Below, one piece after another: positions 5,041-20,913 of a stretch of DNA of 40,147 nucleotides (position 1 is the stretch's first letter; every line of letters starts with the position of its first letter). The stretch lies in assembly GCA_949738935.1 (NCBI GenBank), contig CATJCJ010000614.1, positions 1 through 40,147 on the forward strand, given 5' to 3'. The position numbers were made by a program, and so were the translations under genes. The notes beneath the pieces were generated by a model that did not search any database, was not told the origin of the DNA, and was given only the letters and a program-made list of their open reading frames with translations. The stretch comes from an uncultured Eubacteriales bacterium (lineage in GTDB: Bacteria > Bacillota > Clostridia > Lachnospirales > CAG-274).

Positions 5041-6921
5041 ATGTGCGTAAGGGGGGGGGCTTTAATTGGTCTCATAGACGTAGACGGTCACAACTACCCG
5101 AACTTATGTCTCATGAAACTCTCTGCCTATCACAAGTCTATCGGAGATCATGTCGAATGGCATAACCCCGACAGCGAACAGCAATACGACATAGTGTATA
5201 TGTCGAAAGTGTTCAGCGAAGCGTACTCCCCGGACGTTCCCGAACCCACAAATGCCGCTCGTGTAATCAAAGGCGGCACAGGCTACGCAATCAAGCTCGA
5301 AGACGGAAAAGAGGTTTACCACAAGGAATTAGACCCTCCTCTCCCGGCAGAGATCGAAAGCATATACCCCGATTACAGTCTTTACCCGGAATATACAGGG
5401 TACGGACTACCGCTGAAAAAGCAAACCGCATACGGTTTTCTCAGTCGAGGTTGTCCGAGAGGTTGTGAGTTCTGTCATGTGGCGGCAAAGGAAGGTCGGT
5501 GCGCTTACAAAGTTGCTGATTTATCTCAGTTTTGGAACGGTCAAGGCACGATCTGTCTGAGTGACCCCAACATTCTCGCTTGCCCCGGAGCGGTTGATCT
5601 GCTTACACAGTTGAAAGAGTCCGGCGCAAAGGTCGAGTTCAATCAAGGCTTGGACGCAAGGCTCATTACACCGCAGAAAGCAGAGCTGTTGGCGAGTATG
5701 AAGTTGAAAGTACCTCACTTCGCAATGGATACGATGAAGTCTCTCGAACCAGTGAAGAAGGGTGTCAAGCTCTATGTGGACGCTTACAAGCGGAAGCATG
5801 GGAAATGGGATTGGAGGAATGCAAAAGTCTTCTGTCTCACGAACTTCGATACGACCCATGAACAGGATATGCAACGAATAAGGGCAATCCAAGAGTGCGA
5901 GTGCCAACCGTATGTAATGATTTACAACAAGCCCTCTGCTCCTCCTATCACCCGGAGATTACAGAGGTGGACGAACAGCACAATGCTGTATGCCAAAACC
6001 CAAGACTTCAATGAGTATCAGCGTATGAACTACAAAACAGTTTTGGAAGGAAGTGGTGAAAAGAAAATGCGATTGATTGTTTATGACTGCGAGGTGTTCT
6101 GCGAGGACTGGCTTGTGATCTTCAAGGACATTGAGACAGGTCAGTACACAGTTATTCACAACGACACCGAAGAAATGAAGCAGTGTATCTCCGAAGACTG
6201 TATCTATGTAGGTTTCAACTCGAAGCACTACGACCAGTTCATTATCAAGGCGATATGCTGTGGGTTCACTCCACAGGAAGTGAAACAGGTCAATGACTTC
6301 ATTATTGGCGGCGGTCAAGGTTGGGAGTGTCCTATGCTCCGAGACCAGTACTTCCGTTTCAACAATGTAGACATTAAAGACGATATGCAGATGGGCTTGT
6401 CCCTCAAGGCAATCGAAGGGCATTTGGGTATGTCCGTAGAGGAAACCTCCGTATCGTTCGACATTGACCGTCCTCTGACTGAGGAAGAACTGAAAGAAAC
6501 GGTGTTCTACTGTAAGCACGATGTTGACACAACGGAAAAGCTCGTAGAGCTTCGCCGGGACTATCTGAAATCCAAAATCAACATCGGTAGGCTCGCCGGG
6601 ATTGATGAAGTCAAGGCAATGGGTATGACAAATGCCAAACTGACTGCGGCTCTCCTTCAAGGTACGAAGAAACCGCACGATGATGAACGGCAGTACCAGT
6701 ACCCTCCGAACCTCAAGCGTGATCTGATTCCGCCGGAAGTGTTCGAGTTCTTTGACCGAATGAGAAACCCGGAACTGAGCGATAAGGAGATATTCTCCTC
6801 CAAGATCGAGATTATGATTGGTGATTGTCCTGTGACTATCGGTTATGGCGGCATTCACGGTGCTATCCCGAATTATATGTGGAAGGAGGAATGTGACCCA
6901 TGCGTAAGCGAAAGAGAATAA
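5041..6921 (+). CDS. In-frame fusion: radical-SAM domain protein (N-terminal half) + family-B DNA polymerase 3'-5' exonuclease portion (C-terminal half)
   Basis: IGLIDVDGHNYPNLCLMKLSAYH and CPRGCEFC (CX3CX2C) in the first half; MRLIVYDCEVF...YVGFNSKHYDQFI...HDVDTTEKL exonuclease-like motifs from ~6067; ends just before polymerase motif A. Confidence 0.8.
   Translation: MCVRGGALIGLIDVDGHNYPNLCLMKLSAYHKSIGDHVEWHNPDSEQQYDIVYMSKVFSEAYSPDVPEPTNAARVIKGGTGYAIKLEDGKEVYHKELDPPLPAEIESIYPDYSLYPEYTGYGLPLKKQTAYGFLSRGCPRGCEFCHVAAKEGRCAYKVADLSQFWNGQGTICLSDPNILACPGAVDLLTQLKESGAKVEFNQGLDARLITPQKAELLASMKLKVPHFAMDTMKSLEPVKKGVKLYVDAYKRKHGKWDWRNAKVFCLTNFDTTHEQDMQRIRAIQECECQPYVMIYNKPSAPPITRRLQRWTNSTMLYAKTQDFNEYQRMNYKTVLEGSGEKKMRLIVYDCEVFCEDWLVIFKDIETGQYTVIHNDTEEMKQCISEDCIYVGFNSKHYDQFIIKAICCGFTPQEVKQVNDFIIGGGQGWECPMLRDQYFRFNNVDIKDDMQMGLSLKAIEGHLGMSVEETSVSFDIDRPLTEEELKETVFYCKHDVDTTEKLVELRRDYLKSKINIGRLAGIDEVKAMGMTNAKLTAALLQGTKKPHDDERQYQYPPNLKRDLIPPEVFEFFDRMRNPELSDKEIFSSKIEIMIGDCPVTIGYGGIHGAIPNYMWKEECDPCVSERE
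5051..5059 (+). repeat. Poly-G tract (G9) at codons 4-7 of the radical-SAM ORF
   Basis: atgtgcgtaaGGGGGGGGGctttaattggtctc. Confidence 0.95.
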
Positions 6922-8597
6922 TCCGAAATTTTGACGTAGCGAGTTACTATCCTCACCTCATGACGATCTGTGGGTACACCTCTCGAAACATTCCGTCCCC
7001 GGAGGTATTTGAAAACGTACTCGAACAGCGTATGAAAGCAAAAGCCGCCGGAGACAAGGCTACAGCAAACGCTCTCAAGCTGGTTGTGAACACGACCTAC
7101 GGAGCAATGCTGAATCAGTACAACGACCTGTTTGACCCTCTCATGGGACGCTCGGTATGTATCACAGGTCAGTTGTTCCTCTTGGAGCTGGCACAGAACC
7201 TTTATCAGAACATAGAGGATTTGGTAATCGTCCAGCTCAACACCGATGGTGTCATGCTTGAGTTCTACGAAGATCAGTACGATGAAGTGCTGGCAATCGT
7301 GAACGAATGGCAGTCCCGGACAGGCTTTGAGCTTGAGGAAGACTCCGTGGCTCTGATCGCACAGAAGGACGTGAACAACTACGTTGAGGTTCAGCCGAAT
7401 GGGTCTGTGAAGACCAAAGGCGGCTACTTGGTTCGTGGTATCGCCCCGGCTGGTGCGTTCAATATCAACAACAATGCCTGTATCGTAGCAACAGCTCTCA
7501 AGGAGTATTTCGTGAACGGTACTCCTGTGGAGGAAACCATAAATGGGTGCAACGATATTTTCCAGTTCCAGCTTATTGCAAAAGCCGGGGCGAAGTATCG
7601 TGAAGCCTATCACCTTGTCGATGGTGAGCAAGTCCCGGTACAGAAGGTAAACCGTGTCTATGCCACAAAGGACGAACGGTACGGAAAGCTGTTCAAGGTT
7701 AAGGCTGAGAATGACGCTACCGCCAAGATCGAAATGCTCCCGGAACACTGCATTATCGACAACGACAACCAACTTAGCATTGACGATGTGGATAAGACCT
7801 TCTACATCGAAATGGCAAAGAAACGAATCAATGATTTTTTGGGTGTAAAGCCCGAAAAGAAACCAAGAGGAGGACGAAAAAAGATGGCTACTACAGCTAA
7901 AGAAACCAAAATCACAAACCTCAATGTATATCAGAAGTTGCTCAAGGCGAGGGCTATGTTCCTTGAGTCTGATGTGCAGAAGACAGGTAAGAATATGCAC
8001 CTGTCATTCAAGTACTTCGAGCTGGATGATATTGTCCCTACCGCAACTCGAATTTTCAGCGAGGTCGGTCTGATTCCTGTTGTGAACTTCACTTCCGACA
8101 TTGCAACCATGACCGTAGTCAACACCGACAACCCCGAAGAAGTCATTCCTTTTGTAGCTCCGTTCAATCAGATCGCTCCTATCGTGAGCAATGCTGGTAA
8201 ACAGGCTACCAACGAAATGCAAGCCCTCGGTTCTTCCATCACCTATATGCGCCGCTACCTGTACATGATCGCACTGGATATTTGCGAGAGTGACAGCTTT
8301 GACGCAAATGTCGGAAAGCCTGTTGCCGCACCTCAGACCGCTCCTACCCCTCCGGCTACTCCCGAACAGAGACAGGAAGTGAAACAGGAGTTGACTGCTC
8401 CCGAAGATAACGCAACCGCTTTGCAGATCAAGGGTCTGAAAAACGTGTTGAAGAAGCTCAAGGACGCTGACCCTTCCAAGGAAGAAATGATCGCTCAGAT
8501 TGCGGTTCAGACACAGGGCTTTACCGTTATCAGCAAGTCCGACTGTGAGACTCTTATCACTCGTATCACCGCTATGCTGGAAGGAGGAAATGAGTAA
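6900..8597 (+). CDS. In-frame fusion: family-B DNA polymerase palm/catalytic portion + ERF-family ssDNA annealing protein
   Basis: Motif A FDVASYYPHLM, motif B KLVVNTTYGAM, motif C LNTDGVML; ERF domain from MATTAKETKITNL (~7884) with NLNVYQKLLKARAMF...GSSITYMRRYLYMIALDI. Confidence 0.85.
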   Translation: MRKRKRIIRNFDVASYYPHLMTICGYTSRNIPSPEVFENVLEQRMKAKAAGDKATANALKLVVNTTYGAMLNQYNDLFDPLMGRSVCITGQLFLLELAQNLYQNIEDLVIVQLNTDGVMLEFYEDQYDEVLAIVNEWQSRTGFELEEDSVALIAQKDVNNYVEVQPNGSVKTKGGYLVRGIAPAGAFNINNNACIVATALKEYFVNGTPVEETINGCNDIFQFQLIAKAGAKYREAYHLVDGEQVPVQKVNRVYATKDERYGKLFKVKAENDATAKIEMLPEHCIIDNDNQLSIDDVDKTFYIEMAKKRINDFLGVKPEKKPRGGRKKMATTAKETKITNLNVYQKLLKARAMFLESDVQKTGKNMHLSFKYFELDDIVPTATRIFSEVGLIPVVNFTSDIATMTVVNTDNPEEVIPFVAPFNQIAPIVSNAGKQATNEMQALGSSITYMRRYLYMIALDICESDSFDANVGKPVAAPQTAPTPPATPEQRQEVKQELTAPEDNATALQIKGLKNVLKKLKDADPSKEEMIAQIAVQTQGFTVISKSDCETLITRITAMLEGGNE

Positions 8598-14982: not shown

Positions 14983-15152
14983 GAGATTCAGTAAAATGTA
15001 GTTCGTGCCGGAAGCGGTGTCTCTGCCGCTCCTGTCCGAACAATCAGACGTGCAAGATCGCCCTCCGGCGATATTGTAAGGCAGTCTGTTATTGCAGTAT
15101 CAATAGAAAACTCAAGGAGAACGAGAATGAACACAGACGTAATGTTCAGTAG
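14979..15152 (+). CDS. 57-aa cysteine-rich small protein (9 Cys), probable metal-binding
   Basis: MRDSVKCSSCRKRCLCRSCPNNQTCKIALRRYCKAVCYCSINRKLKENENEHRRNVQ; overlaps the start of the N6A MTase; below ORF-track size cutoff. Confidence 0.5.
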   Translation: MRDSVKCSSCRKRCLCRSCPNNQTCKIALRRYCKAVCYCSINRKLKENENEHRRNVQ

Positions 15153-15596
15153 CAAAACGGACGATTGGGCTACTCCACAAGACTTCTTCGATGAACTGAA
15201 CCGGGAGTTCGGTTTCACCCTTGACCCTTGTGCAGATCATGTCAATCACAAGTGCGCTACTTACTATACGAAAGAACAAGACGGTCTCGTTCATGATTGG
15301 GGGGGGAACGAGTATTTTGTAACCCTCCCTATGGGAAAGAGATTGCCAAGTGGGTTCAGAAATCTCTTGAGGAGAGTCGCAAGCCCAATACCCTTGTCGT
15401 AATGCTCATTCCGGCGAGAACCGATACAAGATACTTCCACGACTTTATTTACGGAAAAGCGGAAATCAGATTCTTTCGAGGACGATTGAAGTTCGGCAAC
15501 TCGAAAACCGCCGCTCCCTTCCCTTCTATGGTCGTAATATTCAAAAACAAGGAGGAAAAATCCCATGAAAGTAACACTCATACAAGCAACCCCTAA
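15127..15596 (+). CDS. Phage DNA N6-adenine methyltransferase (Dam/PF05869-like), reading frame broken at a G8 tract
   Basis: MNTDVMFSSKTDDWATPQDFFDELNREFGFTLDPCADHVNHKC...LVHDWGG in frame 1, ERVFCNPPYGKEIAKWVQK...LIPARTDTRYFHDFIYGKAEIRFFRGRLKF in frame 3. Confidence 0.85.
15299..15306 (+). repeat. Poly-G tract (G8) at the N6A methyltransferase frameshift
   Basis: catgattGGGGGGGGaacgag. Confidence 0.95.
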
Positions 15597-18181: not shown

Positions 18182-19156
18182 ATGAAATTACCTTTCATTA
18201 ACACCAAACCTGTGCGATTGATTGAACTTTTCGGGGGTATCGGCTCACAAGCTATGGCTCTCACTCGATTGAGAGTTGACTTTGAGCATTATCGACTTGT
18301 CGAGTTCGATAAGTACCCAGTCAAAAGCTACAATGCTATTCATGGTACTGATTTTGAACCTACGGACATAACTCAAATCCACGGTTCGGATTTAGGTATC
18401 GTAGACACAGACCATTACTGCTACCTCATGACCTACTCTTTTCCGTGCCAAGACTTGTCTCTCGCTGGTAAACAGCAAGGCATGAGCAAAGGTGGTGGAA
18501 CAAGATCGGGATTGCTATGGGAAGTAGAACGACTGTTGAACGAAACCGAAAACCTACCTCAACTACTCCTCATGGAAAATGTACCACAAGTACACGGTAC
18601 TAAGAACCTTGCGGATTTTGAGGAATGGATTAAGTTTCTCGAAAACAAAGGTTACTCCAACTTTTATCAAGACCTCAACGCGAAGGACTTTGGTGTGGCT
18701 CAGAATCGTAACCGCTGTTTCATGGTGAGCATTCTCGGTGACTACTGCTTTTACTTTCCTACTCCTCGGAAGCTGAATAAGGTGATGAAGGATTATCTCG
18801 AAGACTCCGTTGACGAAAAGTATTATATCAATAGTGATAAGTCTCAAGCACTAATTGATAAGCTGTTGGCAGACGCTCAGTTCAGAGAGAGAGAGAGAGA
18901 GCGTGCGTTGATCTCTCCCTTAACCATCCTCAGAGAAGGGAAATCGCAAACTGCATTTCCGCAAGAACAGACCGAGGAATTAGCAACAGAAAATCGGAAG
19001 GAACCGGAGTTGTCGAATATGATTACCGCCGCTCTGAATTATCGGAGAATTGATAAGGTGGGACTTCCTGTAGTAAAGACACTTTGTGCGAGAGATTACA
19101 AAGGGTTCGGGACAGGGTTCGACACGATGAATGGAGTGATAGAATGGAAACCGTGA
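18182..19156 (+). CDS. C5-cytosine DNA methyltransferase, N-terminal part (motifs I-VIII)
   Basis: LIELFGGIGSQAMAL, SFPCQDLSLAG, LLMENVPQV, QNRNRCFMVSILG. Confidence 0.9.
   Translation: MKLPFINTKPVRLIELFGGIGSQAMALTRLRVDFEHYRLVEFDKYPVKSYNAIHGTDFEPTDITQIHGSDLGIVDTDHYCYLMTYSFPCQDLSLAGKQQGMSKGGGTRSGLLWEVERLLNETENLPQLLLMENVPQVHGTKNLADFEEWIKFLENKGYSNFYQDLNAKDFGVAQNRNRCFMVSILGDYCFYFPTPRKLNKVMKDYLEDSVDEKYYINSDKSQALIDKLLADAQFRERERERALISPLTILREGKSQTAFPQEQTEELATENRKEPELSNMITAALNYRRIDKVGLPVVKTLCARDYKGFGTGFDTMNGVIEWKP
18884..18901 (+). repeat. (AG)9 dinucleotide repeat inside the C5 methyltransferase
   Basis: gttcAGAGAGAGAGAGAGAGAGcgtgcg, encoding RERERER. Confidence 0.95.
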
Positions 19157-19201
19157 AATTAGGTAACATCTTCGGTTACACAGGAGGGAATTTTTCGGGC
19201 A

Positions 19202-19681
19202 ATGTCTATGATAAATACTCTCTCTTCTACGCTCAACACCATGCAAGGAGGTAATAAACAGCCGATGATTATTGAAAATCCAAACCCAAAATTAGTCGGA
19301 GGGTTGGGTGAGATAAATTTCGGAAAACAATATCGTCAAGGAAACAGAGTGTATGACAGTGAATCCGTAGCAATGTGCTTGACTGCACAACCGCTCGGGA
19401 ATACTGGCGGAAACTCATACCTCTATCTCACAGACGAATCTACCGAAATTCAGCAACCCTCACTACGAATAAGAAAACTCACCCCTAAAGAATGTTATAG
19501 ACTCATGGGGTTCGATGATGAAGCATTTGAACGAGCTGAAAAGGTGAACTCGAACGCACAGCTTTATAAACAAGCCGGCAACTTTATTGTGGTAGATGTT
19601 TTAATGGCTATCTTCGACAACCTACTTGTACACAGTCGTTCGGTGTGGCTCGATGAACTTTTGAAAGACGAGGAGGAATAA
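19202..19681 (+). CDS. C5-cytosine DNA methyltransferase, C-terminal part (motifs IX-X)
   Basis: STLNTMQGGNKQPMIIE...RIRKLTPKECYRLMGFDDEAF...LYKQAGNFIVVDVLMAIFDNL; separated from the N-part by stops and frame changes. Confidence 0.85.
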   Translation: MSMINTLSSTLNTMQGGNKQPMIIENPNPKLVGGLGEINFGKQYRQGNRVYDSESVAMCLTAQPLGNTGGNSYLYLTDESTEIQQPSLRIRKLTPKECYRLMGFDDEAFERAEKVNSNAQLYKQAGNFIVVDVLMAIFDNLLVHSRSVWLDELLKDEEE

Positions 19682-20295: not shown

Positions 20296-20892
20296 ATGGC
20301 AAGTAAGAAAGACGCTCCTCAGAATGAGGGTGTACAGGTGATTAAGAAGAAGCCGAGAGGTGGCAACTCTCCTGTCATTGGCATGAATGGGTATGACCTT
20401 GAACCCGGAGACAATACAAAGTTTCTACAGCTCAACATGGAGCTTTTCAATATGGATAAAATTGATATGCACGATGAAGAAGCTGTGACAGAACGACTCA
20501 ATGAGTATTTTGCTTTGTATGCCAAGCATGATGTGAAACCCACTGTAGCTGGTATGGCAATGGCATTGGGTTGGAGTAGACAGCAACTATGGGCTGTTAC
20601 ACACGACCAACCTTTGGGTGGACGTGGGAACTATTGCACGTTGCCGCAGAGCGTGACCGACATTATAAAAAAAGCATACTTTTTGCTCGAAAATTTGTGG
20701 GAAAACTACGCTACCAACGGAAAAATTAACCCGGTTACAGCGATTTTCCTTGCGAAGAACAACTTCGGCTACCAAGACAAGACCGAGTATGTTGTGACTC
20801 CCAACGTCCAGCAAGACAACTATGACCCCGACTCTATCCGTCAGCGTTACCTTATCGACTCTGCAAACGACTCTGACGAAGAAAACGACTAA
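20296..20892 (+). CDS. Terminase small subunit-like protein
   Basis: TVAGMAMALGWSRQQLW...GKINPVTAIFLAKNNFGYQDKTEYVVTPN, typical of phage TerS. Confidence 0.75.
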   Translation: MASKKDAPQNEGVQVIKKKPRGGNSPVIGMNGYDLEPGDNTKFLQLNMELFNMDKIDMHDEEAVTERLNEYFALYAKHDVKPTVAGMAMALGWSRQQLWAVTHDQPLGGRGNYCTLPQSVTDIIKKAYFLLENLWENYATNGKINPVTAIFLAKNNFGYQDKTEYVVTPNVQQDNYDPDSIRQRYLIDSANDSDEEND

Positions 20893-20913
20893 CGACTATC
20901 GACTATCGACTAT
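20886..20913 (+). repeat. Four tandem 7-bp repeats CGACTAW starting at the terS stop codon
   Basis: cgactaa-cgactat-cgactat-cgactat. Confidence 0.85.

Follow-up and report, generated by a model that had tools for sequence, protein, structure and literature searches.

A dinucleotide repeat as a probable three-state selector of recognition modules in a split phage C5-methyltransferase

Phase variation of DNA methyltransferases is usually described as bacterial, with either ON/OFF output or recombination-based shuffling of the target-recognition (TRD) part. The mod genes switch ON and OFF, hsdS genes vary mainly by recombination, and both belong to bacterial restriction-modification (R-M) systems or are derived from them. 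In C5 enzymes, the interval between motifs VIII and IX is the target-recognition region. Temperate phages of Bacillus encode multispecific C5-methyltransferases with several TRDs per polypeptide (reviewed in PMC12707154), and M.AquI and M.EcoHK31I are C5-methyltransferases built of two subunits (PMC3404938). C-terminal phase variation has been described in Neisseria gonorrhoeae and Helicobacter canadensis (PMC5320596). The available part of a recent review of methyltransferase phase variation contains no phage example (PMC13076061), and a search of the open-access literature found no report of a phage methyltransferase switched by a simple sequence repeat (SSR).

Here, we analyzed a 40,147-base stretch of DNA (the window), which is a phage contig of a MAG with 885 contigs and carries genes for an integrase, a terminase large subunit, a helicase, a DNA polymerase, and ERF. 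The window encodes a C5-methyltransferase in two cistrons, alpha and beta, and we consider it likely that an (AG)9 repeat in alpha belongs to a three-state, slippage-driven selector of the target-recognition part of the enzyme. The anatomy of the gene, the boundary position of the repeat, its non-triplet units, the module offset, the dual-coding frame, the selection, the three settings, and the length difference are all computed results. Coordinates are collected in Table 1.

The methyltransferase is recognizable in pieces. The alpha frame, ORF1, contains motifs I-VIII (PF00145, E=3e-44, profile positions 2-246), and its core aligns with residues 12-204 of M.HhaI, ends near residue 204, and has M.HhaI and other C5-methyltransferases as its PDB matches. 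Motifs IX-X lie in a downstream ORF in the original frame (PF00145, positions 270-322, E=9e-11), and a middle segment, METVKLGNIFGYTGGNFSGNVYDKYSL, begins at 19144 in the -1 frame. With motifs I-VIII, the catalytic PC, a TRD, and motifs IX-X, the protein is a predicted C5-cytosine DNA methyltransferase, and as a PF00145 protein it is not an N6-adenine enzyme of the mod or HsdM-HsdS kind found in phase-variable Type I and Type III R-M systems. The (AG)9 repeat is in frame within ORF1, where it is read as RERERE, and it is the sole dinucleotide run of at least 5 copies in the 40-kb window. ORF1 thus has the non-triplet repeat within a coding region that characterizes SSR-mediated phase-variable genes. 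RERERE as a hydrophilic linker was considered and rejected, as relatives have units of varied sequence, none with a length that is a multiple of three.

A sequence-only reading of this DNA had already recognized both motif blocks, the in-frame (AG)9, and the out-of-frame middle segment, and each is present where it was placed. That reading had also put (AG)9 at one of two frame breaks, and neither break falls there. Moreover, while the features it listed behind the repeat were correct, it overlooked module 1, which occupies another frame. The frame of module 1 ends at a stop codon at 19051-19053, and at the current repeat length module 1 is not fused to the core. AlphaFold modeling of the alpha chain from the window, and of a relative with a single module, gave low confidence in the TRD region, and therefore we make no structural claim about the modules. 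In gene layout, the window and its relatives have motifs I-VIII and motifs IX-X on separate polypeptides, the arrangement of two-subunit enzymes of the M.AquI type. The window modules are spread over frames and cistrons and do not form a multispecific single polypeptide.

Table 1. Features of the split C5-methyltransferase and of the neighboring Dam gene in the window
Feature	Coordinates	Strand	Basis
Alpha ORF (ORF1): C5-methyltransferase core, motifs I-VIII, plus TRD module 2 at the current repeat length	18182..19156	+	PF00145, M.HhaI alignment, ORF list
(AG)9 SSR, candidate frame selector at the catalytic-domain/TRD boundary	18884..18901	+	Position common to 53/139 relative clusters
TRD module 1, VDLSLNHPQRREIANCISARTDRGISNRKSEGTGVVEY	18907..19020	+	+2 frame relative to ORF1, directly 3' of (AG)9
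TRD module 2, ALNYRRIDKVGLPVVKTLCARDYKGFGTGFDTMNGVIEW	19034..19147	+	Now in ORF1 frame; module end encodes beta start site
Beta Shine-Dalgarno GGAG (19133-19136), 7-nt spacer, and ATG (19144), inside NGVIEW codons	19133..19146	+	Sequence
Beta ORF as read: beginning of TRD module 3, cut off after CT tract	19144..19254	+	Sequence; intact homologues in L005-L010
(CT)4 tract, point of beta frame break, within CTCTCTCT	19218..19225	+	Comparison with L005-L010
Rest of beta: remaining module 3, module 4 (~19292-19434), motifs IX-X (19463-19639)	19202..19681	+	PF00145
Phage Dam methyltransferase (PF05869), out of frame at G8 (15299-15306) just 5' of NPPY	15127..15596	+	Pfam, family comparison

Relatives carry repeats at the same position. 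Profile searches and a genome search gave 240 loci, some of them repeats of one contig, and after core ends were located by HMM and cores at least 95% alike were merged, 139 clusters, mostly gut-phage contigs, were judged. The genome-contig scan gave no match with a single protein query and gave matches with an alignment query. Host-group genomes gave only weak DNA matches, with one exception: a second C5-methyltransferase homologue that the source MAG itself carries on a different contig (L104, at G000:C93:2506-3183), in a single 507-residue frame without a boundary repeat. Apart from one second peak, starts of non-mononucleotide repeats number about one cluster per 60-base bin, whereas the bin at the core end has 36 clusters. 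When units of up to 10 bases were allowed, a boundary repeat was found in 53 clusters, and the unit length was 1 (12 clusters), 2 (5), 4 (18), 5 (14), or 7 (4) but never 3 or 6. The units vary (AG, GACA, CAGA, AGAGC, AACAG, CAGAA, AACAGAG, and others), and therefore neither a common repeat ancestor nor a fixed linker peptide explains the boundary repeat. Such modules follow one another between motifs VIII and IX in single-ORF homologues, such as that of Dulem virus 39 (L021), and two relatives (L052 and L088) have only about 150 bases in the TRD interval, space for one module. Because the modules fill the interval between motifs VIII and IX and the M.HhaI alignment ends at residue 204, we conclude that the repeat sits at the boundary of the catalytic and recognition parts.

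The second peak is (TTAC)n, found just 5' of catalytic motif IV in about 20 clusters and absent from the window. In these relatives (L037, L041, L045, L059, L064, L087, L129, and others), (TTAC)3-6 encodes YLLTYS about 460-490 bases 5' of the core end, and in L182, which has (TTAC)3, the part upstream of the repeat is in another frame. Possibly, (TTAC)n is a third switch of the C5-methyltransferase family. Also at motif IV, an intein-like, homing-endonuclease-like insertion of about 350 residues is found at the catalytic Cys of one relative (L013, 38-1879).

What follows the repeat depends on the frame in which it is left. Three-frame translation gave module 1 in one frame, module 2 in another, and an immediate stop in the third for most repeat-bearing clusters, and the module-2 setting traverses the DNA of module 1 in a shifted, open frame. 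A repeat in the 3' part of a gene, with alternative C termini spread over three frames, is the arrangement that characterizes C-terminal phase variation. With modules 1 and 2 located by HMMs, the frame of module 2 is that of module 1 plus one in 20 of 21 repeat-bearing clusters and in 26 of 27 overall. By contrast, module 1 occurs in every one of the three phases with respect to the core (8 module-1, 14 module-2, and 9 OFF), such that all three settings are present in nature as the current states of relatives. Of 31 clusters, 30 keep the shifted frame open across module 1, versus 2.3 expected from synonymous shuffles with local codon usage, and 17 of 18 do so versus 2.15 expected once copies at least 70% identical are merged, with kinship controlled in part only and P values to be taken as indicative. 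In relatives that have module 1 fused in frame and no repeat, the shifted frame is mostly closed.

The length of the repeat also differs between close relatives. Two pairs of otherwise identical assemblies differ in length at the boundary. One pair (L005 and L006) matches over 10,109 bp with zero mismatches, and its sole difference is (GA)18 versus (GA)16, which moves the gene from the module-2 setting to OFF. Thus, repeat number alters the product between close relatives, as in a phase-variable gene. The other pair (L199 and L200), from different metagenome bins, matches over 6,904 bp with no mismatch and has (CAGA) tracts 12 bases apart, a multiple of three. Moreover, in the L078 group, one base in a poly-G tract is all that sets it apart from L079. 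Other near-identical sets (L029/L030 and L113-L115) had unchanged repeat lengths.

Substitutions were counted by codon between the window and one relative (L023). Module 1 in its own frame has 16 synonymous and 5 nonsynonymous codon differences, and the same DNA read in the shifted frame has 2 and 20, respectively. The corresponding counts are 14 and 2 for module 2, 14 and 5 for the beta N terminus, and 36 and 11 for motifs IX-X, in beta after the break. We conclude that every segment is under purifying selection in the frame of its proposed use.

One could suppose that the locus is a plain ON/OFF switch, in which a single TRD module is of importance and the rest are relics. Known mod-type switches operate in this mode, and one frame of the three is nearly always OFF. 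Against this, modules 1 and 2 are both under purifying selection at a fixed +1 offset, the frame through module 1 to module 2 is held open far above chance, and the module-1 and module-2 settings both occur as current states. Plain ON/OFF variation is therefore unlikely. The sequence-only reading had likened the gene to phase-variable mod genes, and its link to an SSR is borne out by the boundary repeat of relatives, the length change, and the choice of frame. Its analogy to ON/OFF switching is not, as (AG)n has a single OFF setting and two settings that each lead to a TRD module of their own.

Pseudogene decay, in which a methyltransferase released from selection gathered frameshifts, is very unlikely, even though the window has a beta cut at the CT tract and, close by, an out-of-frame Dam gene. 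The alpha/beta split is shared by the nearest viral relatives (L005-L010; about 74% DNA identity): ORF1 is followed by a second ORF that starts at a -1 frame ATG overlapping the end of ORF1 and runs to motif X. Moreover, GGAG, seven bases, and ATG are found inside the NGVIEW codons in most module-2-bearing clusters. Because ORF2 is a conserved second cistron with its own Shine-Dalgarno sequence and ATG, the first break is normal architecture. Judged from sequence, it is a conserved overlap of ORF1 stop and ORF2 start and not damage, and the earlier description of a gene broken in three frames gives way to one of conserved design. The second break is different. It is specific to the window and absent from L005-L010, in which beta is intact (125 amino acids) and has (CT)5 where the window has (CT)4. 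The difference has the size of one repeat unit, which speaks for SSR-linked variation here as well. Coding homology of the downstream part of beta starts at about 19226, and because beta 3' of the break is still conserved at the codon level, the interruption appears to be recent or reversible. Assembly error is possible for the CT-tract break alone. As sequenced, the window copy has alpha set to module 2 and a beta that is cut off at the CT tract, which probably leaves it inactive for now. Finally, the modules have no extra internal stops, and the codon-position counts give purifying selection in each piece in its own frame, including beta after the break. This conservation strongly disfavors long-term decay, and the fixed inactivating mutations that the sequence-only reading had set against its own proposal are contradicted by selection on every segment.

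Several products might instead be made from one template with the DNA constant, by programmed ribosomal frameshifting or by transcriptional slippage at the repeat. Slippage at a mononucleotide repeat can bypass frameshifts in M.HaeIII (PMC3812077), and poly-G tracts are present in several relatives. However, repeats of four, five, or seven nucleotides are not ribosomal slippery sequences, and otherwise identical phages differ in length at the level of DNA. No conserved slippery heptamer was found at the ORF1/ORF2 overlap, which has a Shine-Dalgarno sequence and ATG instead, and the boundary repeat units vary in both sequence and length, unlike a conserved slippery site at a frame junction. We consider this explanation highly improbable. 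Least probable of all is that the frame changes arose by assembly or sequencing error, for although the window is a MAG contig without read support and short tracts are error prone, the architecture recurs in dozens of independent assemblies, is seen in Anaerocaecibacter muris strain CLA-AA-M11 (L232, not labeled a MAG) with junction G10, and has codon-level selection that agrees with the split frames.

Repeats occur elsewhere in these phages. At the poly-G tracts of the beta region (sequence context GGVADLxYP), the frames split 9/8/1 when there are at least 7 G residues and 34/1/1 when there are fewer. In the phage Dam family (L273-L352), a poly-G tract (G6-G10) lies directly 5' of NPPY in 48 of 70 distinct loci, and loci with the tract are distributed 20/12/16 over the three frames, whereas all 22 loci without it are in frame. 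Near-identical Dam pairs that differ by one G exist. The suggestion that the window holds a second methyltransferase with an SSR-linked frame disruption thus agrees with the G8 tract of Dam and with the poly-G phase differences of its family. Also in the window, a radical SAM gene (phrog_9298) has G9 (5051-5059) near its 5' end (5041-5062), is in frame now, and may likewise be phase variable. Across 5041-8597, the radical SAM ORF runs in frame into the first half of a DNA polymerase (phrog_1252), whose second half starts at 6900 in a different frame and itself continues in frame into an ERF annealing protein. A heptamer, CGACTAT, is present three times at 20893-20913, at the end of the ORF at 20296-20892.

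Split genes also occur without repeats. Two rumen phage homologues (L011 and L012; about 5700-7200) lack a boundary repeat and have about eight TRD-like modules in successive frames (f1, f2, f0, f1, f2, f0, f1, f2 in L011), several of which begin at or within the end of the preceding module. Streptococcus phages Javan141, 129, 172, 179, 131, and 117 (L105-L108, L111, and L112) have the core and the TRD/IX-X part in separate ORFs without simple repeats, and their split C5-methyltransferase is annotated as two genes. Because these phages are split but repeat free, a repeat switch is not a requirement for staggered modules.

How the (AG)n repeat would select among modules can be proposed as follows. 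Alpha would consist of the catalytic domain (motifs I-VIII) and whichever TRD module is in frame behind (AG)n, and beta, translated from its own Shine-Dalgarno sequence and ATG within the end of module 2, would supply further TRD modules and motifs IX-X in the manner of M.AquI. Slippage of the repeat would move the reading frame. In one setting, the core would be joined to module 1; in a second, the DNA of module 1 would be read in a shifted frame as a linker and the core joined to module 2; and in the third, a stop within a few codons would turn the gene OFF. Phages or lysogens of one population would thus differ in the sites they methylate, some methylating none, most likely as a bet against diverse host restriction enzymes. 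Slippage during phage growth, assembly of alpha with beta, the DNA target of each module, and an anti-restriction use are inferred by analogy with M.AquI, phage multispecific enzymes, and phasevarions. On balance, and with somewhat less assurance than for the selector itself, we favor a wider reading in which the repeats of a widespread, mostly gut-phage family are three-position selectors that join one core to frame-overlapping recognition modules or to none, and in which these, with the poly-G switches of beta and Dam, would give stochastic, heritable methylation specificity and anti-restriction bet-hedging. If so, phages have methylation contingency loci of their own, in which one repeat picks between two specificities or OFF by means of overlapping frames. 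It would also explain the broken look of these genes in phage annotation, predict mixed methylation within single phage populations, and offer a way to test whether phages hedge against host restriction. The modules would also give studies of C5-methyltransferase specificity a natural collection of TRD cassettes.

The open-access literature searched gave no phage enzyme in which an SSR chooses between recognition modules that lie in overlapping frames. As in C-terminal phase variation, a repeat late in the gene would switch the C terminus among three frames, but the cases described are bacterial genes, such as those for pilin, mafB, and a membrane protein (PMC5320596). Here, the alternatives are a pair of conserved TRD modules in a phage DNA methyltransferase, with one stretch kept open in two frames and an OFF state in the third. 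As in the Type III mod and Type I hsdS phasevarions, in which SSR slippage or TRD exchange alters methylation stochastically, the change would be one of methylation; unlike in those systems, the enzyme is a phage C5-methyltransferase and the TRD would be chosen by an SSR. Like the multispecific enzymes of Bacillus phages, the enzyme is phage borne and has several TRD modules between motifs VIII and IX, and the single-ORF homologue of Dulem virus 39 in the window's family has the multispecific type of layout. Because the modules of the window are in staggered frames and separate cistrons, however, they appear to be used alternatively and not all together. Finally, as in M.AquI, motifs I-VIII with part of the variable region are on one polypeptide, and the distal variable region with motifs IX-X is on another. 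No repeat switch has been described for M.AquI or M.EcoHK31I, whereas here the C terminus of alpha would be selectable.
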